From: Bacteroidales bacterium
GTDB lineage: Bacteria > Bacteroidota > Bacteroidia > Bacteroidales > UBA3824
Assembly (NCBI GenBank): GCA_017960885.1
Contig: JAGCYI010000008.1
Coordinates: 1-64,000, forward strand
Length of the DNA: 64,000 nucleotides
Direction: 5' to 3'
Below, piece after piece: positions 25,096 through 35,081 of the stretch (the first letter of the stretch is position 1; every line of letters begins with the position of its first letter). A program made the position numbers and the translations under genes. The notes beneath the pieces are model-generated. The model was given only the letters and a program-made list of their open reading frames with translations, was not told the origin of the DNA and searched no databases.

Positions 25096-26139
25096 CTAAT
25101 TGTTTTCGGGGCGGAGCTTGCGTACTGTTACGGCTGTTTGCCACATTTCGCTTTCGCGGAGAGCCTTGAGCTCTTTTTCGAGACCTTCGCGATAGTCGGG
25201 CTTAGAGTTGGCGTCGATAGAGATCTGAGCCTCGTTGCCGCATTTTACGCTTTCGTAAAGTTTCTGAACCACGGGTTTGATGGCGTCGTGGAAACGGGGG
25301 AACCAGTCGAGTGCGCCGCGCTGTGCTGTGGTAGAGCAGTTGGCGTACATCCAGTCCATACCGTTCTTTGCAAAGAGAGGTCCGAGGCTCTGTGTGAGTT
25401 CCTCAACTGTTTCGTTGAAAGCCTCAGAGGGAGAGTGACCATTCTCGCGGAGCACTTCGTATTGAGCCAAGAGAAGACCCTGGATAGCGCCCATCAACGA
25501 ACCGCGTTCGCCGGTGAGGTCTGATGTAGCCTCGCGCTGGAAAGTGGTCTCGAACAAGTAGCCCGAACCGATACCGATACCGAGTGCGAGAGTTTTTTCG
25601 AGAGCCTTGCCGGTAGCGTCCTGATAAACTGCGTAAGAAGAGTTCAAGCCGCGGCCTTCGAGAAACATTGTGCGGAGCGATGTGCCCGAACCTTTGGGGG
25701 CAACCATTATAACGTCGATATCCTTTGGAGGAACCACGCCTGTGCGGTCGCTCCAAGTGATGGCGAATCCGTGTGAGAAATAGAGCGATTTGCCAGCTGT
25801 GAGATATTTTTTCAAAGTAGGCCATACCGACATTACAGCGGCATCTGAAAGAAGACACATTATAATAGTGCCTTTTTCGCAAGCCTCTTCAATTGAGAAA
25901 AGTGTTTCGCCGGGTTTCCAGCCGTCGGCTTTGGCTTTTTCAAAAGTTTTGCCGGCGCGTTGACCAACAATTACATTAAAACCGTTGTCGCGGAGGTTTT
26001 GCGATTGTCCGGGACCCTGTACACCGTATCCAATTACGGCGATGGTTTCGTTTTTTAAGATTTCACGTGCTTTTTCCAAAGGAAATTCCTCGCGGGTCAT
26101 CACATTTTCGATAACACCGCCAAAATTCATCTTTGCCAT
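25096..26139 (-). CDS. ilvC: Ketol-acid reductoisomerase
   Basis: The 347-residue enzyme has the N-terminal NADP(H)-binding motif AVIGYGVQGPGQSQNLRDNG and a C-terminal knotted helical domain. Mg-binding and catalytic segments include VAPKGSGTSLR and SDLTGERGSLMGAIQGLL. It converts acetolactate to dihydroxyisovalerate in Val/Leu/Ile synthesis, in the cytoplasm, using NADPH. It is the last of the three ilv genes, 127 nt after ilvN. A minus-strand TACTTTTG box lies in that gap (26183-26190), so it may also have its own weak promoter. Length and motifs match Bacteroidota IlvC. Confidence 0.95.
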   Translation of the reverse strand: MAKMNFGGVIENVMTREEFPLEKAREILKNETIAVIGYGVQGPGQSQNLRDNGFNVIVGQRAGKTFEKAKADGWKPGETLFSIEEACEKGTIIMCLLSDAAVMSVWPTLKKYLTAGKSLYFSHGFAITWSDRTGVVPPKDIDVIMVAPKGSGTSLRTMFLEGRGLNSSYAVYQDATGKALEKTLALGIGIGSGYLFETTFQREATSDLTGERGSLMGAIQGLLLAQYEVLRENGHSPSEAFNETVEELTQSLGPLFAKNGMDWMYANCSTTAQRGALDWFPRFHDAIKPVVQKLYESVKCGNEAQISIDANSKPDYREGLEKELKALRESEMWQTAVTVRKLRPENN

Positions 26140-26266: not shown

Positions 26267-26806
26267 TTATTCCCTCTCCTCAGCCTCGTCTCTTCTTGCC
26301 AAAACATCCTGCAGCTTGCCCATAGGCCTGGTGACGATAATCCTTGCCGACTGCACAAACTCACGCACGTCGAAGTCGCGGAGGTTGTTCTTGAGGAACA
26401 TTTCGAGGTTGGCCTGCGTGCCGGTTTTTTCGAGAACCACAAACTCCTCTTCCTGTTCAAAAATACGCACGTTCCAAGTGTCTACAAGGGTCTTGATGCG
26501 GCGGAGGGTATCCTTGCTGTCGATGGCTATCTTGTAGAGGGCGAGGCACTGCGATATTATCTGGTCTTCGCGGTAGAGGAACACCTTGGCCACCTCCACC
26601 TGCTTTTCGATACATTTGGCAAGGTGCTTGGCCTGTTCCAATGTGGAAATGATGGTGATGACAAACGAGTGCAGACCCTCGTGCACGCACGACGACGTGT
26701 TGAGGGTTTCGATATTTACCTTGTGCCGCGTAAAGATGATCGAGATGCGGTTCAAAAGTCCGATGTGGTTTTCGGTATATATTAAAAAGGTGTATTTCTT
26801 TTTCAT
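26267..26806 (-). CDS. ilvN: Acetolactate synthase small (regulatory) subunit
   Basis: The 179-residue protein has an N-terminal ACT domain (YTFLIYTENHIGLLNRISIIFTRHKVNIETLN) and a second ACT-like region, with FEQEEEFVVLEKTG at the C-terminal side. The subunit binds valine and gives feedback inhibition of the large subunit. Its ATG overlaps the ilvB stop by one base (TAATG), implying tight translational coupling. The length fits the long IlvN/IlvH type rather than the short one. Confidence 0.93.
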   Translation of the reverse strand: MKKKYTFLIYTENHIGLLNRISIIFTRHKVNIETLNTSSCVHEGLHSFVITIISTLEQAKHLAKCIEKQVEVAKVFLYREDQIISQCLALYKIAIDSKDTLRRIKTLVDTWNVRIFEQEEEFVVLEKTGTQANLEMFLKNNLRDFDVREFVQSARIIVTRPMGKLQDVLARRDEAEERE

Positions 26807-28521
26807 TATTCTTGATTTTTAGGTAGTTCAAAAACTTGGTCGCCTGCGCTTCCGCCGGTCTTGATTACGGGGTAGATGTTGGTGTTTTTTTCTACCTGAG
26901 CCTCAATAAGAAACGGTCCAGGAGTGGTGAGCATGTCCTCAACGGCTTTTTCCAACTCTGACTGTGTGGACACTCTGCAGCCGGGAATGTCGTATGCGGC
27001 GGCAATCTTCACAAAATCAGGGTTTTGCAACTCCTTGAAATAGTCGTGTCCCTTGTAGTAAAGATCCTGCAACTGGCGAATCATTCCTAAATATTTGTTG
27101 TTCAGTATGATAACCTTGATTGGCAGACGGTATTGCATAATAGCGCCAAGTTCCTCCATAGTCATCTGGAAACCGCCGTCGCCCATAAACGCCACAATGT
27201 TGCAGCCTTGTATAGCGTTGGCAGCGCCAATAGCAGCCGGAAGCGCAAAACCCATAGTGCCGAGTCCGCCGCTGGTAATCAGACAGTCGGAGACGGTGTG
27301 ACGGAAATACCGAGCCGCAGCCATCTGGTTTTGTCCCACGTCGGTAACGCATACCGCGCCCATCGGCAGACGCGACGAAACTGCGTCCACAACCCTTCCC
27401 ATACGGAGCTCTTCGGCATTGGGGTCGAGGTCGTGGTCGATTATTTTGGTATGTTCAATGTTGCGGTAGAATGATATTTTTTCCACCCATTTGGGATTCT
27501 CCTTGGGTCGGATGCGCTCGTTGATAAGTTTCAAGGCTGATTTGGCGTCGGCATTGATAGGCACGTAGGCGCGTTTCACCTTGTTGAGCTCGGCAAAATC
27601 GATGTCGATGTGTATAATTTTGGCTTTGGGCGCGTATTTCTTCACGTTGCCAGTAACTCGGTCGGCAAAACGCATACCCACGGCCAGCAGCACGTCGCAC
27701 TCGTTGGTCATCATGTTGGCGGCGTAGTTGCCGTGCAGACCCACCATTCCGGCAAAGAGCGGACTGTCGCTCGAAAACGCCGTGAGACCCTTGAGCGTGC
27801 AGCCTACGGGGATGTTGAGCTTTTCGGCAAGGGTGCGCACCTCGTCGCGGCATTTGGAGATCAACGCTCCGTGTCCCACCACCATAAACGGACGCTCGGC
27901 ATTGTTGAGCAGTTCGGCGGCGGTGTCTATCTTCTCCACGATGGGTTTCCATTTGGGATGATAGTTGGCTATCTTGGTGCATTGATGATATTCAAACTCC
28001 TTTATGATAGATAGTTGCGCATTTTTGGTAATATCCAGCAACACAGGACCGGGGCGACCGCTGCGGGCAATGTAGAAAGCCTTGGCGATGGTTTCGGCAA
28101 TCTCGTCGGCGGTGGTAATCTGATAGTTCCACTTGGTCACAGGCATTGAGAAACCCACCACGTCGGTTTCTTGAAACGCGTCGTAGCCCAAATCTTCGGA
28201 GTTTACCTGACCAGTGATGCACACGATAGGCACGCTGTCGAGCATAGCGTCGGCAATGCCGGTGAGCAGGTTGGTAGCTCCGGGACCCGATGTGGCCATG
28301 CACACGCCCACCTTGCCCGACGCCTCGGCGTATCCCTCGGCGGCATGCACCGCGCCCTGTTCGTGACGCAGCAGTATATGCGATATTTTTTTCTCGTAGT
28401 TGTAAAACTGGTCGTAAATAGGCAGGTTGGCGCCGCCCGGATAGCCGAACACAATGTCCACGTTTTCGGCAATGAGGGCGAGCGTGATGGCTTCAGCTCC
28501 TGATATGTTGTTGTATCTCAT
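26806..28521 (-). CDS. ilvB: Acetolactate synthase large (catalytic) subunit
   Basis: The 571-residue enzyme is ThDP-dependent. N-terminal VFGYPGGANLPIYDQFY and HEQGAVHAAEGYAEASGKVGVCMATSGPGATNL carry the catalytic Glu (in RHEQGA). A central FAD-binding-like domain follows, then the C-terminal ThDP motif GDGGFQMTMEELGAIMQYRLPIKVIILNN. It condenses two pyruvates to acetolactate, or pyruvate with 2-ketobutyrate. It is first in the ilvBNC operon and lies right after the attenuator described at 28536-28649. All catalytic motifs are present. Confidence 0.96.
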   Translation of the reverse strand: MRYNNISGAEAITLALIAENVDIVFGYPGGANLPIYDQFYNYEKKISHILLRHEQGAVHAAEGYAEASGKVGVCMATSGPGATNLLTGIADAMLDSVPIVCITGQVNSEDLGYDAFQETDVVGFSMPVTKWNYQITTADEIAETIAKAFYIARSGRPGPVLLDITKNAQLSIIKEFEYHQCTKIANYHPKWKPIVEKIDTAAELLNNAERPFMVVGHGALISKCRDEVRTLAEKLNIPVGCTLKGLTAFSSDSPLFAGMVGLHGNYAANMMTNECDVLLAVGMRFADRVTGNVKKYAPKAKIIHIDIDFAELNKVKRAYVPINADAKSALKLINERIRPKENPKWVEKISFYRNIEHTKIIDHDLDPNAEELRMGRVVDAVSSRLPMGAVCVTDVGQNQMAAARYFRHTVSDCLITSGGLGTMGFALPAAIGAANAIQGCNIVAFMGDGGFQMTMEELGAIMQYRLPIKVIILNNKYLGMIRQLQDLYYKGHDYFKELQNPDFVKIAAAYDIPGCRVSTQSELEKAVEDMLTTPGPFLIEAQVEKNTNIYPVIKTGGSAGDQVFELPKNQE

Positions 28522-28535
28522 AAAGTTTTGTTTTT

Positions 28536-28572
28536 AATAAAAAAGCCGCTCCAATTTATAAGGTGCGGCTTT
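28536..28572 (-). terminator. Attenuator terminator of the ilv operon (segments 3 and 4)
   Basis: On the minus strand AAAGCCGC pairs with GCGGCTTT, extended by two G-C pairs beyond a T-T mismatch, and is followed by a U-rich tail (TTTTTTATT). It ends 15 nt before the ilvB start codon, the place for a leader terminator. Confidence 0.85.
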
Positions 28573-28598
28573 AATATGCGTAATCAATCCCGCCGCAA

Positions 28599-28649
28599 TT
28601 AACTATGCGGTACGACCACGACGGGAATATATGATACATTGTTATACAT
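28599..28649 (-). CDS. ilv leader peptide (16 residues)
   Basis: Read on the minus strand the ORF is MYNNVSYIPVVVVPHS. It has four consecutive Val codons (GTC GTG GTC GTA), an Ile and one further Val, in a 16-codon ORF about 20 nt after the predicted transcription start. These are the amino acids made by the operon. Segment 1 (ACCGCA, overlapping the Pro-His codons) can pair with segment 2 (TGCGG). Segment 2 (GCGGC) can pair with segment 3 (GCCGC), and 3 with 4 in the terminator. This is the classic ribosome-stalling attenuation design: low charged Val-tRNA stalls the ribosome, frees segment 2 and prevents the terminator. Confidence 0.85.
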   Translation of the reverse strand: MYNNVSYIPVVVVPHS

Positions 28650-28670
28650 AATATAGTCTTGTTTACCACC

Positions 28671-28701
28671 GCAAAAGTACAACTATTTTTAAAAACAACA
28701 A
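28671..28701 (-). promoter_or_regulatory. Promoter of the ilv leader
   Basis: On the minus strand, TTG (28701) and TACTTTTG (28672-28679) are 22 bp apart. Transcription should start near 28665, upstream of the leader peptide. Confidence 0.75.
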
Positions 28702-28717
28702 ATTTTCTCAAAAAAAC

Positions 28718-28748
28718 TTGACACGTATTTGATAATTTCGTACCTTTA
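28718..28748 (+). promoter_or_regulatory. Promoter of the siaB-like gene
   Basis: TTGACA at 28718 and TACCTTTA (one mismatch to TAnnTTTG) at 28741-28748, 23 bp apart, divergent from the ilv promoter. Confidence 0.6.
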
Positions 28749-28842
28749 ACAAAAATTTTAAAACGGTGTCGAATGGCACGGTAAATGCACTGAAATTTTG
28801 TCAGAAATACATTATAACACCAACAACAAACCACAGAGCCAC

Positions 28843-29955
28843 ATGTCAGAGCGTGATTTTATATTGGAACTGATGCAGTCGACAGTCAACGAGGACCTGC
28901 ACTACTTTTATAGAGGTGAGTTTACGCAGAGCCTCTCTCATCAGATTCTCTCGCTTGCCGAAAAAAATATCGACAAAGACCATATCTCGTCGAAAATCAA
29001 GAAGCGAGTGTTCCACATTATGGTTGAGAGCATTCAGAATATCTCACGCCATCAAGACGAGCCTTACAAGCCAGAGGAGACAGCCATTTTCGGCATTCAA
29101 AAAAGAAGCGAGCATTACTACATCACCACCGGCAACGTTATCGAAAACGCCAAGACAGAATCGCTCTGCAGCAAGCTCGACAAAATCAACAATCTTGACC
29201 AGGAGGAACTCGACGCATTCTACCGCGAGGTGCTCAGCAACGGACAGCTGTCGTCGAAGGGCGGCGCTGGTCTCGGCCTTATCGAGATGGCTCGCAAGTC
29301 GGGCAACAAGCTCAAATACGCCCTGAAACAAATCAGCGACCTGATGTCGTATTTCTATCTGCACAGCAGCATCAACACAATCACCCTTAGCGAAGCTCCT
29401 GAGCCGCCCGACGATTCGGTATACTCGCTCAAATATATGACCGACCTCCACCAGTTTATTATCGACAACAATGTGCTGCTAATTTACAGCACGGTGTTCG
29501 ACCAGGACAGCCTCCTGAGCCTGATTCAGATAATGAAAAACCGTGGCGACACACTCAATTCGCGCAAAAAGCTCATCAGCCTGATGGTGGAGATGCTTCA
29601 AAACATTATTCATCATGGTGATGTGGATTTCGATGGCATAAAAGGTAGCAAAGGTATTTTCTATATAGCCGAGAACAATGGCTGCAACGAACTTACCACT
29701 ATCAATTATATCGCAAACAGTTCTATAGAAAAGCTTAAAGCCAAAATAGACTATATCAACTCGCTTTCCGACGAGGAGCGCGAAGATTATTACAACGAAC
29801 GCCTGTTTGATTTCCGCATGACCACAAACAAAGAGGCTGGACTTGGCTTTATTGAGATGCGGATCAAGAGCAAAAACCCGCTCGAATACTCTTTTGAAAA
29901 AGTTGACAACGACTATTCTCTTTTTAAATATACTATTCAACTACGAAACAATTAA
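28843..29955 (+). CDS. siaB: SiaB-family protein kinase with two tandem kinase domains (DUF6272)
   Basis: The 370-residue protein consists of two related histidine-kinase-like ATPase domains. Domain 1 has VESIQNISRHQ (N box) and SSKGGAGLGLIEMARKSGNKLKY (G boxes). Domain 2 has VEMLQNIIHHGDVD and NKEAGLGFIEMRIKSKNPLEY. Single-domain SiaB proteins are about half this length. SiaB phosphorylates SiaC on a threonine; a PP2C phosphatase (SiaA) reverses it. The ATG at 28843 was chosen because the only longer start is a TTG. SiaC follows 23 nt downstream. Both domains keep the Asn and Gly motifs, so both may be active. Confidence 0.88.
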   Translation: MSERDFILELMQSTVNEDLHYFYRGEFTQSLSHQILSLAEKNIDKDHISSKIKKRVFHIMVESIQNISRHQDEPYKPEETAIFGIQKRSEHYYITTGNVIENAKTESLCSKLDKINNLDQEELDAFYREVLSNGQLSSKGGAGLGLIEMARKSGNKLKYALKQISDLMSYFYLHSSINTITLSEAPEPPDDSVYSLKYMTDLHQFIIDNNVLLIYSTVFDQDSLLSLIQIMKNRGDTLNSRKKLISLMVEMLQNIIHHGDVDFDGIKGSKGIFYIAENNGCNELTTINYIANSSIEKLKAKIDYINSLSDEEREDYYNERLFDFRMTTNKEAGLGFIEMRIKSKNPLEYSFEKVDNDYSLFKYTIQLRNN

Positions 29956-29978
29956 TCTGTTATTCATTACGCAAAAAA

Positions 29979-30356
29979 ATGGAAAAACTAATTATTCAAC
30001 ACACCGAAGAAACTCCCTCAGTAACATTAGACAAAGACAACGGAGTGTTTCGCATATCCGAAAACTCCTATCCCGACGACGCGCTCAGGTTTTACCAGCC
30101 TGTGGTTGAATGGATAAAGAAGTATTGCGAAGACCCAAATCCCGAAACCGTGTTTGAATTTGCGTTTTCGTACTTTAACACATCGAGCGAAAAAATTATA
30201 ACCAAGATACTCAACATGTTGAAAGAAAACAGTTCGAAAACCGCCCTGACGATAAAGTGGTGCTACGAGTCGGACGACACCGACATGCATAAGTCTGGCA
30301 TCCGTTTTTCGCAACTGTGCGACATGCATTTTGAATTTGAAGAGATTGAATGTTGA
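29979..30356 (+). CDS. siaC: SiaC-family regulatory phosphoprotein (DUF1987)
   Basis: The 125-residue protein matches SiaC, with TPSVTLDKDNGVFRISENSYPDDALRFYQPV and FAFSYFNTSSEKIITKIL. Thr68 in the FNTSS motif aligns with the threonine phosphorylated by SiaB in Pseudomonas SiaC. There, unphosphorylated SiaC binds and activates the diguanylate cyclase SiaD. No GGDEF protein is seen here, so the target must differ or lie elsewhere. It is probably co-transcribed with the upstream kinase and ends at a bidirectional terminator. Confidence 0.92.
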   Translation: MEKLIIQHTEETPSVTLDKDNGVFRISENSYPDDALRFYQPVVEWIKKYCEDPNPETVFEFAFSYFNTSSEKIITKILNMLKENSSKTALTIKWCYESDDTDMHKSGIRFSQLCDMHFEFEEIEC

Positions 30357-30363
30357 CAATACA

Positions 30364-30396
30364 AAAAAAGCGGAACCTTGGCGGCGCCGCTTTTTT
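30364..30396. terminator. Bidirectional terminator
   Basis: AAAAAAGCGG/CCGCTTTTTT 10-bp stem between the convergent siaC and hsp20 genes. Confidence 0.85.
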
Positions 30397-30416
30397 GAGA
30401 GATTAAGCACTGTGGC

Positions 30417-30860
30417 TTATTGGATTTCTACCGAAGTCTTGGTGTCTTGATGAGCCGCCTTAGGTACTTTGATAGTGAGGATACCGTTGACGTAAGAAGC
30501 CGAAATAGCGGACGTGTCGACATCCTTAGGCAGTGTGAACGAGCGGCGGAAAGATCCGTATGAGTATTCTCTGCGGTAAACGTCAGACTTGCGGTTTTGC
30601 TCGGTCTGTGTTTCGCGTTCCACCTCTATCGACAGCTCGTCGCGCAGGATATTCACCTTGAAATCTTTTTTCTCGTATCCCGGGGCGGCCATGTCGATTA
30701 CAAAGTCGGTGTCGGTTTCGCTGATGTTTACAGCCGGAATGCAGAACTGTTTTTTGTTCTGGTAGTAAGGATTGAAAATTCCATTGTCGAAAATGGAGTC
30801 CGAATTTAATAATCTTTGCAACATATTTGCCTCCGTATTTAAATAGTTATATGATTTCAT
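30417..30860 (-). CDS. Hsp20/alpha-crystallin small heat-shock protein
   Basis: The 147-residue chaperone has N-terminal AYNYLNTEANMLQRLL-type variable residues. An alpha-crystallin domain follows, with AVNISETDTDFVIDMAAPGYEKKDFKVNI and the closing ASYVNGILTIKVPKA (consensus GVLTIxxP). It holds unfolding proteins in the cytoplasm. It is preceded by three near-palindromic TGTCA/TGACA motifs at 30941-30987, likely operator sites. It is convergent with siaC and divergent from the giant sensor gene. Confidence 0.95.
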   Translation of the reverse strand: MKSYNYLNTEANMLQRLLNSDSIFDNGIFNPYYQNKKQFCIPAVNISETDTDFVIDMAAPGYEKKDFKVNILRDELSIEVERETQTEQNRKSDVYRREYSYGSFRRSFTLPKDVDTSAISASYVNGILTIKVPKAAHQDTKTSVEIQ

Positions 30861-30940
30861 ATTCTAAGTTTTAATTGGTTTGACATTTCACAAATCAATT
30901 TTTCAAACTGCATGCCAACGCAGAAAACGGGCTATTTTTC

Positions 30941-30987
30941 TGTCAAAATGTCAGTTATGCGACATTTAGTCAATGACAAAATGTCAT
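30941..30987. promoter_or_regulatory. TGTCA-AAA-TGTCA / ATGACA-AAA-TGTCAT operator-like repeats
   Basis: TGTCAAAATGTCA (30941-30953), GACATTTAGTC (30961-30971) and the perfect palindrome ATGACAAAATGTCAT (30973-30987) lie in the divergent region between hsp20 and the sensor gene. A related TTGACATTT sits at 30880. They may be a heat-shock or stress regulator site. Confidence 0.6.
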
Positions 30988-31081
30988 ATTAGCGGTTAAG
31001 GATGAATGATATCGATAAATGCAATAGATAATAATACATAAATTTAACATGTAAACGACAACACTATTTGTTAAAAATCAG

Positions 31082-31089
31082 TATATTTG
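31082..31089 (+). promoter_or_regulatory. -7 box (TATATTTG) of the sensor phosphatase gene
   Basis: Exact TAnnTTTG match 24 bp upstream of the ATG at 31113. No TTG lies at the expected distance. Confidence 0.5.
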
Positions 31090-31112
31090 CAATAGTGGTA
31101 TTCTAGAGATAA

Positions 31113-34100
31113 ATGAGAAGGAAACTAAATATTATAGTATTGACTATTTTGCTGGTGTTTGTGGCTGCCTATGTGGATGCTCAATGCCAATATAGGTTTA
31201 ATAATCTCAACAAAGCAAATGGTCTTAACAATGATGTTGTAACCGCGATAACCGAAGATGGTGCCGGCTTTATATGGTTGGGCACACAGACGGGCTTGCT
31301 GCGTTATGATGGTCAGTCGTTTGTGCCTATTTCTAACATCAACGATTCCATAACTCTCGAAGGATCTAGTATTATTGACCTTAAGACCGATTCGTCTGGC
31401 GACATCTGGATTGCCACCGACCATGGAATGTCTAAGTATGATATTGAGAACGAACGCCTTATTAATTATTATATCAGCCATGATGGTGAGATAATATCTA
31501 CTTCCCGTGTGGAAAAAATCTTCATTACAAGCGACAACCGTTTGCTATTTTTTAGCAGCAACGGCTATCTCTATGTCTTCAATGAAACCAATAAGGTGTT
31601 TGAGGCTTGTACTTATGATTTTTTTTCGCACCGAAATGTCAAATCATGCTTTGTAGACGATGACAACACCATCTGGGCTGTCGACAGGAACGCTTCGTCT
31701 ATTTATCATGTGGATTTTGAAGGCAACCTTTTGGATTCGCTCGAATGTAAAAGCAAATATCCGTTCCCCCTTGTGGAGACCAACGCTTTTCTCAACTTGG
31801 GTGACGGCAAGGTGTGGCTGGGAACCTATGCAGGCATTTACCAAATCGACGTAAATAATAAAAGCGTTACTCTTGTAGAAGATATCGAAGGACAGCATAT
31901 GCCAAAGAGCATCAAGACATTCTTTAAGCGCGACAATGGCGATGTATGGATAGGCACCAATGCCGAAGAGCTTTTCTTAGTAAATCTTAAGGACAAGAGT
32001 GTAAGTATGATAGAATCTGACCACAGCCAGTTGTCGCTGCGCAGGCTCAACAGCGTTACTGTTAACACCATATACGAAGACAGCAATTCGCTTATGTGGT
32101 TTGGCACTTGGCATGGAATCTCGTTCATGAGTTTGAATAATCCTCTTAAATTCAACGCCATCAGCTATCCCGAAAACTCCGGTATTCTTCGACAAAACCA
32201 GATTACGGCAATTACACTGTCTCCTGAAGGACTTATTACAATAGGTAGCGATGGCGGCGGCATAGTTTTTTGGGACGGACAGAGCTCCCGCAACAGCGGA
32301 GTGTTTACCGAAGATTCGCCAAACAGCCATATGAAGTCGTCGTCGATACTGGCAATGGCATACGACAAGGAGGGCAACCTTTGGACAGGAGGTTACAACA
32401 ATCCTCTTCACAAGCTCAGCCGCGACCATAAGGTTTCTGAGTCGTATAGTTTGGTAAACACTATCAAAGGCGTTACCAGCGACTTTATAGCCGACATACT
32501 GATCGACCGTCAAGACCGTATTTGGGTGCTGACCAATGGCGCCGGCTTGCTTAGGTTTGATCCGAAGTCGAAACAATTCACCCGTATTTTGTGCGATTCG
32601 CGACTTGTGGAGCCGGTAAGCATGTATGGCACGTGCCTTTGCGAGGGTCCCGACAGCACTATCCTCGTGGGTACATACTCTGGTTTGTATGTTTACTATC
32701 CAAACCATGATATTATTGAAAACTATGCTTATAGCTATGGGTCTCAATATAGTATAGCACACAATGCGGTGAACGATATTTTGTACGATTCGCACAATCG
32801 CGTTTGGGTAGCCACTCCTGCCGGTATCGACAAGTTCGACATTATGCACGGCATCTTTACCCATTACACAGGCGACAATGCTATCAAAAACGATATTTGT
32901 TCCAATATTATAGAAGATTGGAGTCACGATTTGTGGATCACCACCAACAACGGCATACTTAAATTTAATCCCGAAGTTAACAAAGTAACAAGGCTTTACG
33001 ATACCGACGACGGACTTCTCTCCACCAGTTTTGAGCGTCATGCTGTTTGCGTTTCTAAAAAAGGTGCTATATATATTGGCACTCACGACGGTGTGGTATA
33101 TTTTAGCGCACCTGAAATACAGGCTGTTACCAAAGTTGCGAAACCAGTAATTACAAGTCTTTTGCTAAGTTACAACAAGGTATATCCCGATTCCGCCAAC
33201 TCTATACTCAAGCGGTCGATATCCTGCACCGATAGTTTGGAATTCGACTGGGACAAGACTGCATTTTCGTTTGAGTTTACCGTGCTTGATTATCTCTATG
33301 GCAAAAACATTAAAATACTCTACCGGCTCGACGGATATCAAAACACCTGGACAGACATCGGCACTCGGCGCGAATTGGGATTCACAAATCTCAATCCTGG
33401 AGTATATACCCTCCGTCTGATAGCCGAGAATTCCGACCGTATACGAAGCGAGGAGCGCACATTGGTAATCAGGATACTTCCGCCGTGGTACAAGACCAAG
33501 GGCGCGATAGCATGTTTAGTGTTGCTTGGACTTCTGCTGTTTTGGCTTATACACGTGTTGCGTGTACGGGGTATGCGCCGCCGTCAAACAGAGTTGGAAC
33601 AGATTGTAGACAGCCGCACTTTGGAACTCGTAAACCTCAACTCAGTGCTCGAACAGCGCAACGAGGAGATGATGCAGCAGAAAGAAGAGATACAATCGCA
33701 GCGCGACGAACTTTATGAGAAAAACAACCAGCTCCATTCAAGTCGCGAGGCTATCCAGCAGTCGTATCAGAGGCTCTTAGCCCTTAGCGAGCTCGACAAG
33801 CATATTTCAAGCTCTACCAATATCGAGTCGATCTTGCAAAAGGTGTATAATAATAAGGTGGTATCCTTGGCAGGATGCGGCTTGTGTATCTGCAAGCGTA
33901 CCAAAAATCCGAGCATTGTGGAGTTTTCGCCATATATTGAAAATGACGAGATTTACCATCTGGACGATGAAAAACTTTCTGAACTTACCGAGCCTCTCAC
34001 CTTTACATGTTTCCACAATCGTCAAGAAATTGTTGCCGACAACTCCTCTGATTACGAAGTAACACCGTTTCTGGCAGAGTTAGGCTACCGCACATGCGTG

Positions 34101-35081
34101 AGAATTCCGCTTTTTAATGCCGACGAGGTGTGCGCCGTTATGATTATCAACAGCCACAACGAAAACGCCTTCACCAAAAACGACATAGCTATTTTCAAAG
34201 TAATAGCCTCTTATAGCGAGATTGTGATTGAAAAAGCAGACGCATATTCGCAGATAGCGTCCAAGAATGCCGCCATCAACGGCAGTATATCCTATGCCAA
34301 AACCATTCAAAAACTGTTTCTGCCTCAGATCGAAGAGTTTAAGCTCTATTTCGATGCCGAAGTTATCGACCGTCCAAAAGATATTGTGTCGGGCGACTAT
34401 GTTTGGCAGTGCGTGGAGAAATCCGACAATGGATTTATGATATTCAGCGCAGTGGTGGATTGCACGGGTCACGGTGTGCCGGGCGCGTTTATGAGTTTGA
34501 TATCCAACCAGATATTGCGCGAAGTGGTGCAAACAATGAAGATAACCGAACCTATGGACATACTGGCACAAGTGTCGGAAACCACAGCCAAGATGCTCAA
34601 GCAAGACAACGGCGAAAACAAAGACGGCATGGATATGTCGTTGTGCAGGTTTGATGTTGACGCTGAAGGCAATATGTATCAGTTTGTTTATTCCGGAGCC
34701 AAATGCCCGATACTGTTCAGCAGGCACAACAGCTCCGAGTGTGTGATGATTCCTGCCGACCGTATCTCTATTGCCGGAGGATTCCGCCGACAGTCTGACC
34801 GTCCGCAGTTTACACAACAGGTGTTTGAGATTATTCCTGGCGACACTATCTATATGTACAGCGACGGTATCATTGATTTAAACAATACCAGCCGTGCAAG
34901 GTTCGGACGCAAACGTCTTATTGAGGCTGTAAATAGCGTGTCGTCTTTCGCTCCTGACATTCAGAAACAAAAGATGGAATGTATTCTTGATAGTTTTTCC
35001 ACCGGCACCGAGCAGCGCGATGATATTACGCTTTTGATTCTAAAAGTTAGGGATAAGGTTGAGTTGCAAGAGCATAACTAA
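31113..35081 (+). CDS. Two-component-regulator propeller sensor with GAF and PP2C (SpoIIE) phosphatase domain
   Basis: The 1322-residue protein has a signal peptide followed by about 14 Reg_prop beta-propeller blades (repeats of the D.G.iWigT..Gl type, residues about 30-690). A Y_Y_Y domain (about 715-780) and a membrane helix (LVLLGLLLFWLIHVL) follow, then a long coiled coil and a GAF domain (about 900-1040). The C-terminal PP2C/SpoIIE phosphatase has SGDYVWQ, DCTGHGVPGAFMS, DGMDMSL and YMYSDGIIDL. This is the architecture of a membrane sensor that dephosphorylates a protein partner. With siaB and siaC directly upstream, SiaC is the obvious substrate. Confidence 0.9.
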   Translation: MRRKLNIIVLTILLVFVAAYVDAQCQYRFNNLNKANGLNNDVVTAITEDGAGFIWLGTQTGLLRYDGQSFVPISNINDSITLEGSSIIDLKTDSSGDIWIATDHGMSKYDIENERLINYYISHDGEIISTSRVEKIFITSDNRLLFFSSNGYLYVFNETNKVFEACTYDFFSHRNVKSCFVDDDNTIWAVDRNASSIYHVDFEGNLLDSLECKSKYPFPLVETNAFLNLGDGKVWLGTYAGIYQIDVNNKSVTLVEDIEGQHMPKSIKTFFKRDNGDVWIGTNAEELFLVNLKDKSVSMIESDHSQLSLRRLNSVTVNTIYEDSNSLMWFGTWHGISFMSLNNPLKFNAISYPENSGILRQNQITAITLSPEGLITIGSDGGGIVFWDGQSSRNSGVFTEDSPNSHMKSSSILAMAYDKEGNLWTGGYNNPLHKLSRDHKVSESYSLVNTIKGVTSDFIADILIDRQDRIWVLTNGAGLLRFDPKSKQFTRILCDSRLVEPVSMYGTCLCEGPDSTILVGTYSGLYVYYPNHDIIENYAYSYGSQYSIAHNAVNDILYDSHNRVWVATPAGIDKFDIMHGIFTHYTGDNAIKNDICSNIIEDWSHDLWITTNNGILKFNPEVNKVTRLYDTDDGLLSTSFERHAVCVSKKGAIYIGTHDGVVYFSAPEIQAVTKVAKPVITSLLLSYNKVYPDSANSILKRSISCTDSLEFDWDKTAFSFEFTVLDYLYGKNIKILYRLDGYQNTWTDIGTRRELGFTNLNPGVYTLRLIAENSDRIRSEERTLVIRILPPWYKTKGAIACLVLLGLLLFWLIHVLRVRGMRRRQTELEQIVDSRTLELVNLNSVLEQRNEEMMQQKEEIQSQRDELYEKNNQLHSSREAIQQSYQRLLALSELDKHISSSTNIESILQKVYNNKVVSLAGCGLCICKRTKNPSIVEFSPYIENDEIYHLDDEKLSELTEPLTFTCFHNRQEIVADNSSDYEVTPFLAELGYRTCVRIPLFNADEVCAVMIINSHNENAFTKNDIAIFKVIASYSEIVIEKADAYSQIASKNAAINGSISYAKTIQKLFLPQIEEFKLYFDAEVIDRPKDIVSGDYVWQCVEKSDNGFMIFSAVVDCTGHGVPGAFMSLISNQILREVVQTMKITEPMDILAQVSETTAKMLKQDNGENKDGMDMSLCRFDVDAEGNMYQFVYSGAKCPILFSRHNSSECVMIPADRISIAGGFRRQSDRPQFTQQVFEIIPGDTIYMYSDGIIDLNNTSRARFGRKRLIEAVNSVSSFAPDIQKQKMECILDSFSTGTEQRDDITLLILKVRDKVELQEHN

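Follow-up and report, generated by a model that had tools for sequence, protein, structure and literature searches.

The ilvBNC operon of a rumen Bacteroidales bacterium (UBA3824) is very probably controlled by a ribosome-mediated transcription attenuator responding to valine shortage, as judged from a 64,000-nucleotide stretch of its genome (GCA_017960885.1, contig JAGCYI010000008.1, positions 1–64,000; genome label G000), hereafter the window. Comparison of sequences supports this interpretation, which an initial annotation of the same DNA had put forward. The case is built on the sequence elements, their unlikelihood, their layout, the conservation of that layout and the covariation of the competing helices in relatives; transcription start, leader translation, termination and the response to valine are what we infer from them. 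The window element belongs to a known type, ribosome-mediated attenuation; less expected are an order-wide set of leaders absent from Rfam and the occurrence of tandem modules.

Elements of a probable attenuator upstream of ilvBNC

The gene upstream of ilvBNC, a member of the SiaB-type kinase family, is divergent, so the operon needs a promoter of its own. In keeping with the Bacteroides-type promoter of the initial annotation, a putative one matches the established consensus TTTG/TAnnTTTG, with TTTG at 28702–28699, a spacer of 19 nt and TACTTTTG at 28679–28672 on the minus strand. The elements between this match and the end of the operon are as follows:

28672–28702, minus strand: putative Bacteroides-type promoter, a sequence match to the consensus TTTG / TAnnTTTG
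28599–28649, minus strand: leader peptide ORF, MYNNVSYIPVVVVPHS, with four consecutive Val codons at 28622–28611
28606–28611, minus strand: segment 1, ACCGCA, able to pair with segment 2
28592–28597, minus strand: segment 2, TGCGGC, the antiterminator 5′ arm, starting 1 base past the leader stop codon
28564–28569, minus strand: segment 3, GCCGCA, the antiterminator 3′ arm and terminator 5′ arm
28539–28572, minus strand: intrinsic terminator, AAAGCCGC..GCGGCTTT plus a U tract at 28544–28539, segments 3:4
26806–28521, minus strand: ilvB, acetolactate synthase large subunit (TIGR00118, 658 bits against a cut-off of 538)
26267–26806, minus strand: ilvN, acetolactate synthase small subunit (TIGR00119, 56.6 bits, slightly below the cut-off of 56.9; NF008864, E 1.8e-20)
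25096–26139, minus strand: ilvC, ketol-acid reductoisomerase (TIGR00465, 311.8 bits against a cut-off of 226)

The leader opens with an ATG at 28649, closes with a UAA stop at 28601–28599 and encodes 16 amino acids, among them the row of four Val codons already noted in the minus strand, gtc gtg gtc gta. All four segments proposed for the attenuator were located on that strand in the pairings given for them, segment 4 being GCGGC at 28549–28545, followed by six T at 28544–28539. The intrinsic terminator lies between the leader ORF and the first gene, as had been described, with 17 nt, not 15, separating its last T from the ilvB ATG (28521). The identities of ilvB, ilvN and ilvC derive from NCBIfam, the ilvN match falling barely below its curated cut-off, and the agreement claimed between leader codons and regulated product holds, the run of four Val codons standing before ilvBNC. 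Divergent from ilvB, positions 28798–35081 of the plus strand carry genes resembling SiaB, SiaC and SiaA (kinase, phosphoprotein and phosphatase), a biofilm signalling set of which only the SiaB-family match exceeds its NCBIfam cut-off.

When the 100-nt leader was shuffled 20,000 times with its dinucleotides preserved, an ORF of 8–40 codons with VVVV arose twice and an ORF with a run of four V/I/L 481 times; across both strands of the whole window, VVVV is present in just 2 of 493 short ORFs. For this one GC-rich locus by itself, the 2:3 pairing did not differ significantly from shuffled spacers (p 0.13), and support for it therefore comes from relatives.

A predicted ribosome-dependent switch

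We postulate that transcription would start a few bases past 28672. With Val-tRNA plentiful, the ribosome would reach the UAA stop and cover segment 2, leaving segment 3 free for the 3:4 terminator to halt RNA polymerase before ilvB; with Val-tRNA short, it would stall on GUC GUG GUC GUA and cover segment 1, so that segments 2 and 3 would pair, no terminator would form and ilvBNC would be transcribed. Without a ribosome, the 1:2 pairing would form and termination would follow by default.

Folding was carried out to the end of segment 3 with the ribosome assumed to cover 13 nt, counted from where the A-site codon begins. The masked folds contain an antiterminator that excludes the terminator, free at the control codons and masked at the stop, a feature to which covariation in relatives (below) also speaks, next to the single-locus p of 0.13. 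With Val11, Val12 or Val13 of the window leader in the A site, the 6-bp 2:3 helix forms at −10.6 kcal/mol; with codon 10 there, the fold reaches −14.1 kcal/mol and a small 1:2 hairpin competes; with the stop codon there, the 2:3 pairing is lost (−0.5 kcal/mol). With no ribosome on the RNA, segments 1 and 2 fold into a hairpin in which the Pro/Val codons themselves take part, and RNAfold also gave a longer alternative for segment 1, CCCGUCGU with GCGGCGGG, built from Pro/Val codons (CCCGTCGT being 28625–28618). The window terminator folds at −14.5 kcal/mol (z −3.2) and, at equilibrium, once segment 4 has been made, is more stable than the antiterminator, so the switch must act kinetically, like the classical model. 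Over all leader modules (window included), a 2:3 pairing of at least 6 bp was available with the ribosome mid-run in 42 of 42, and with the ribosome at the stop codon in 4 of 42.

Branched-chain leaders across the Bacteroidales

Loci were gathered with IlvB in the genus and order, and 40 ilv upstream regions from other Bacteroidales, most of which have ilvD and not ilvB as first gene, were compared. All but two of the 40 have a V/I/L-rich leader and, after it, a hairpin in the same layout, as shown by a scan and by reading the regions that the scan had missed; of the exceptions, one region is truncated (L145) and in the other ilvD lies inside an operon (L137), and one locus (L134) is counted as leader-bearing only with a TTG start. 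The conserved short ORF upstream of ilv that the initial annotation had proposed looking for is thus present across the order, but among the nearest relatives four of the six hairpin-sharing species are without it. Example leaders read MKLLNTVLVVVVVVVLKNIE (L140), MKALLSNIILVVVVVVLIIRSGVENGIA (L131) and MIMKNLLNIVLVVVVVISEMK (L122); those of ilvB-first relatives read MNRVINSSVLVNLFLLTLFKGMV (L106), MKKLHSFYIYLVLFLKILMKE (L107) and MDSKYLHITLLLIVFIVFTT (L108), and one inside the window's genus reads MNSIFTNIAKLNVLTVVLVVLVLNGVSYGSESFFC (L056).

In the relatives, segment 2 adjoins or runs into the stop codon, its usual form being gUGAGAAUGG, which complements the terminator 5′ arm CCAUUCUCAc, and throughout the family no more than about 6 nt separate its start from the leader stop. 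Its position relative to the stop is the same in other leaders as in the window, where it lies at +3 from the stop codon start; the window geometry, with 3 codons from run to stop and 26 nt from stop to hairpin, is inside the family range (19–57 nt for the latter). In 32 of 42 modules, which are not all independent, the duplex between spacer and arm (2:3) surpasses those from shuffled spacers (p ≤ 0.05). In A1, an alignment of 29 modules from relatives with the window excluded, the compensatory, double-sided changes that had been suggested as a check appear in both mutually exclusive helices, in numbers well beyond those of shuffles and slid controls. Pairing amounts to 82% in the antiterminator helix, with 27 double-change cells against a mean of 10.9 in shuffles, and to 90% in the terminator helix, with 33 against 11.6 (0 of 500 shuffles in each case); sliding either helix by one column largely abolishes the signal.

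A phylum sample of ilvD yielded 8 of 70 loci that pass a strict leader-plus-terminator test, so that in this form the device does not extend across the phylum. Outside the order, ilvD is preceded by terminators and by Ile-rich leaders such as MLSVIISLVIIQIIGIPYHPGKAL at L219, L221, L223, L226 and L236.

Covariance model and codon identity

A covariance model, R1, was built from A1 without codon or gene information and run on 148 Bacteroidales genomes. Beyond the training set, its best loci precede ilvD, leuA, one hisG and one gltB (17 of the 18 retrieved loci at E ≤ 1e-3, by our own count); weaker matches include plain terminators. The regulatory codon tracks the pathway, with Val/Ile/Leu before ilv, few Val before leuA and His before hisG, where the leader MTFLTLHLHHSHSGPQAS has five His codons and a hairpin of the same layout (L293, G096:C55:12261–12336). 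The leuA leaders (n = 8) contain 39 Leu and 4 Val and the ilv leaders (n = 41) 142 Leu and 176 Val (Fisher, V versus L, 5e-9), the V versus L contrast being the informative part because leaders were partly chosen for V/I/L content. A further R1 match (L290, G128:C9:243695–243773; E 6e-5) precedes a glutamate synthase large subunit gene, with the leader MNSRVIVLSFKVILRRYISG.

Two leader-ORF-plus-terminator modules stand in series before a single ilv operon, upstream of ilvD or ilvB, at L109, L111, L119 and L129, the last reading MRNLNNIILSIIIILVVVIP and then MNTTLIIIVVVIILILIRT; two R1 matches each on G164:C140 (6262, 6418) and G074:C429 (636, 772) are probably tandem.

Against R1 the window attenuator scores 13.6 bits (E 0.017 for 401 nt), the top match within 28400–28800 and in the correct place and strand, and it was not recovered by R1 in the genome-wide search; it is a sequence-divergent case whose layout is shared with the Bacteroidales set. 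The best R1 match of its own genome (49731–49808, minus strand) is a symmetric terminator between plus-strand genes, with no leader, and was rejected as a false positive. At gathering thresholds, Rfam returned no riboswitch, T-box or leader family in the window or 20 related loci; RF01692 (Bacteroid-trp), which we take to be a trp attenuator, gave no match over its gathering cut-off in the window or related loci, and a sub-threshold resemblance to His_leader appeared only at a leuA leader (L163). No clear leader–terminator module was found at ilvD of the window's genus, and none at leuA of the window's own genome (L172).

Patchy distribution within the genus

The full device is present in two species, that of the window and G002 (IlvB 97%), whose leader reads MYNNVSYIPVVVTPQS, with one of the four Val codons changed to Thr. 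In both, all four segments and the hairpin are intact, as are the start codon and three or more of the Val codons, and the changes fall at other leader positions. The hairpin is common to six species of the genus; four of these (G012, G004, G011 and G013; IlvB 95–98% identical) keep it and have neither promoter nor leader, and the leader is therefore dispensable on a short time scale. In G012, G004 and G011 the hairpin stands behind a same-direction gene that we call serpin-like from a reading of its sequence, and in G013 only the end of such a gene is seen. In G011 and G004 a single contig runs through the upstream flank, the serpin-like gene and ilvB, so that the gene occupies the site of the window promoter and leader. 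Replacement of that promoter and leader (window 28539–28702) by the serpin-like gene, hairpin kept, was observed at L050/L002, L052/L004, L060/L020 and L063/L034; the genus assemblies are draft metagenome bins in which single junctions need care, though the serpin-like form recurs in four assemblies.

By ilvB sequence, G011 groups with the window's species (1% apart), and G004 and G012 group with G002 (2–3%); the distribution of the two upstream forms, leader and serpin-like gene, does not follow this ilvB tree, a pattern suggestive of recombination or repeated loss. Elsewhere in the genus, G009 has a leader of its own, and no leader was seen before ilvB in G015, G016, G008 or G006. In two species, G005 and G010, ilvB is directly preceded by a terminator and a tandem array of two to three tRNA-Val (TAC) genes (L054:1072–1377, L055:3316–3509). 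An origin of the leader ORF by exaptation of the 3′ end of the serpin-like gene was considered and is not supported: a stop-aligned register looked good, but without the stop codon and with gaps the similarity was mostly within shuffles (p 0.01–0.49).

Alternative explanations

What counts against the attenuator is the absence of the leader in four close species, the Val-to-Thr change in G002, the 13.6-bit R1 score and the short 6-bp 2:3 helix (p 0.13). The hairpin could be a plain terminator for upstream transcription, or a 5′ hairpin stabilising the mRNA, with the leader a chance ORF, as the leaderless hairpins behind a same-direction serpin-like gene in G012, G004 and G011 and the insignificance of the window's 2:3 pairing on its own would allow. 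We regard this as improbable: the upstream gene in the window is divergent, so there is no neighbour transcript to end, VVVV at this position before ilvBNC is very improbable by chance, and the same layout precedes ilv operons across the Bacteroidales. Slightly less probable still is an attenuator that was functional in an ancestor and is now a weak constitutive terminator, its antiterminator spanning only 6 bp and its peptide drifting in G002; its absence from sister species, the Thr codon and the weak R1 match fit such decay, whereas in both carriers the changes lie elsewhere in the leader and leave the start codon, three or more Val codons, all four segments and the hairpin intact.

A metabolite riboswitch, a T-box or a protein-bound leader, in place of a ribosome-sensed one, would in principle also agree with a structured 5′ leader and a terminator preceding a biosynthetic operon, but the window's leader, at about 130 nt, is mostly ORF, no Rfam family exceeded its gathering threshold in the window and 20 related loci, and codon identity follows the pathway in relatives; we consider such a leader highly improbable.

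Implications

Read as a ribosome-sensing attenuator, the window element provides a concrete and testable regulatory element in an uncultured rumen lineage. Tentatively, and with chances that we place a little short of even, leader-peptide attenuation may be the ordinary, order-wide control of branched-chain synthesis in the Bacteroidales, acting through leaders outside Rfam and, in several lineages (L109, L111, L119, L129 and probably G164 and G074), through two modules in series, where full expression would need starvation to be sensed at both, as a multiplicative gate. The results suggest that ribosome-sensed attenuation would govern the ilv and leu operons, together with at least one his operon, in a major gut and rumen order. 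With codon content following the pathway, the regulatory amino acid could be read from the leader sequence, and the presence or absence of the leader among species 1–3% apart in ilvB offers a natural experiment on the worth of attenuation.

Comparison with known systems

Leader-peptide attenuation of ilv operons is classical, and textbooks tie the strategy to Proteobacteria; ivbL-ilvBN and ilvL-ilvGMEDA are the attenuators of the Enterobacteriaceae. The window element shares with these a short peptide of branched-chain codons, a stop beside segment 2, mutually exclusive antiterminator and terminator and an ilv operon; it has a 16-aa leader, a four-Val run and a Bacteroides-type promoter match, and the likeness drawn here is one of layout. 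The likeliest source of an earlier prediction for Bacteroidetes is a comparative attenuation study by Lopatovskaya et al. in 2010, which may cover part of the set.

The initial annotation was fair in naming Proteobacteria as the group from which such leaders are best known, but their presence in Bacteroidota had already been suspected (PMC9723704; RF01692 in PMC2864571). Bacteroid-trp RF01692 is listed as a cis-regulatory motif in this phylum (Weinberg 2010, PMC2864571), the Flavobacterium psychrophilum transcriptome gave strong clues for leader-peptide attenuation before amino-acid operons, in a text that does not mention ilv (PMC9723704), and a map of B. thetaiotaomicron includes sORFs in long 5′ UTRs that are reminiscent of leader peptides (PMC7366714). 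Bacteroid-trp and the F. psychrophilum leaders resemble the window element as cis-regulatory leaders in Bacteroidota, the latter likewise preceding amino-acid operons, whereas RF01692 gives no match at the window attenuator. The Corynebacterium ilvBNC leader (PMC10272879, PMC11857589) also combines a uORF and an attenuator before ilvBNC, in another phylum and under a three-hairpin model; here too the comparison is one of layout. Although the mgt leaders sense other signals and the window holds a single module, the tandem attenuators of Salmonella mgtCBR (PMC3641672) place two leader ORFs in series before one operon, as do several Bacteroidales ilv loci.
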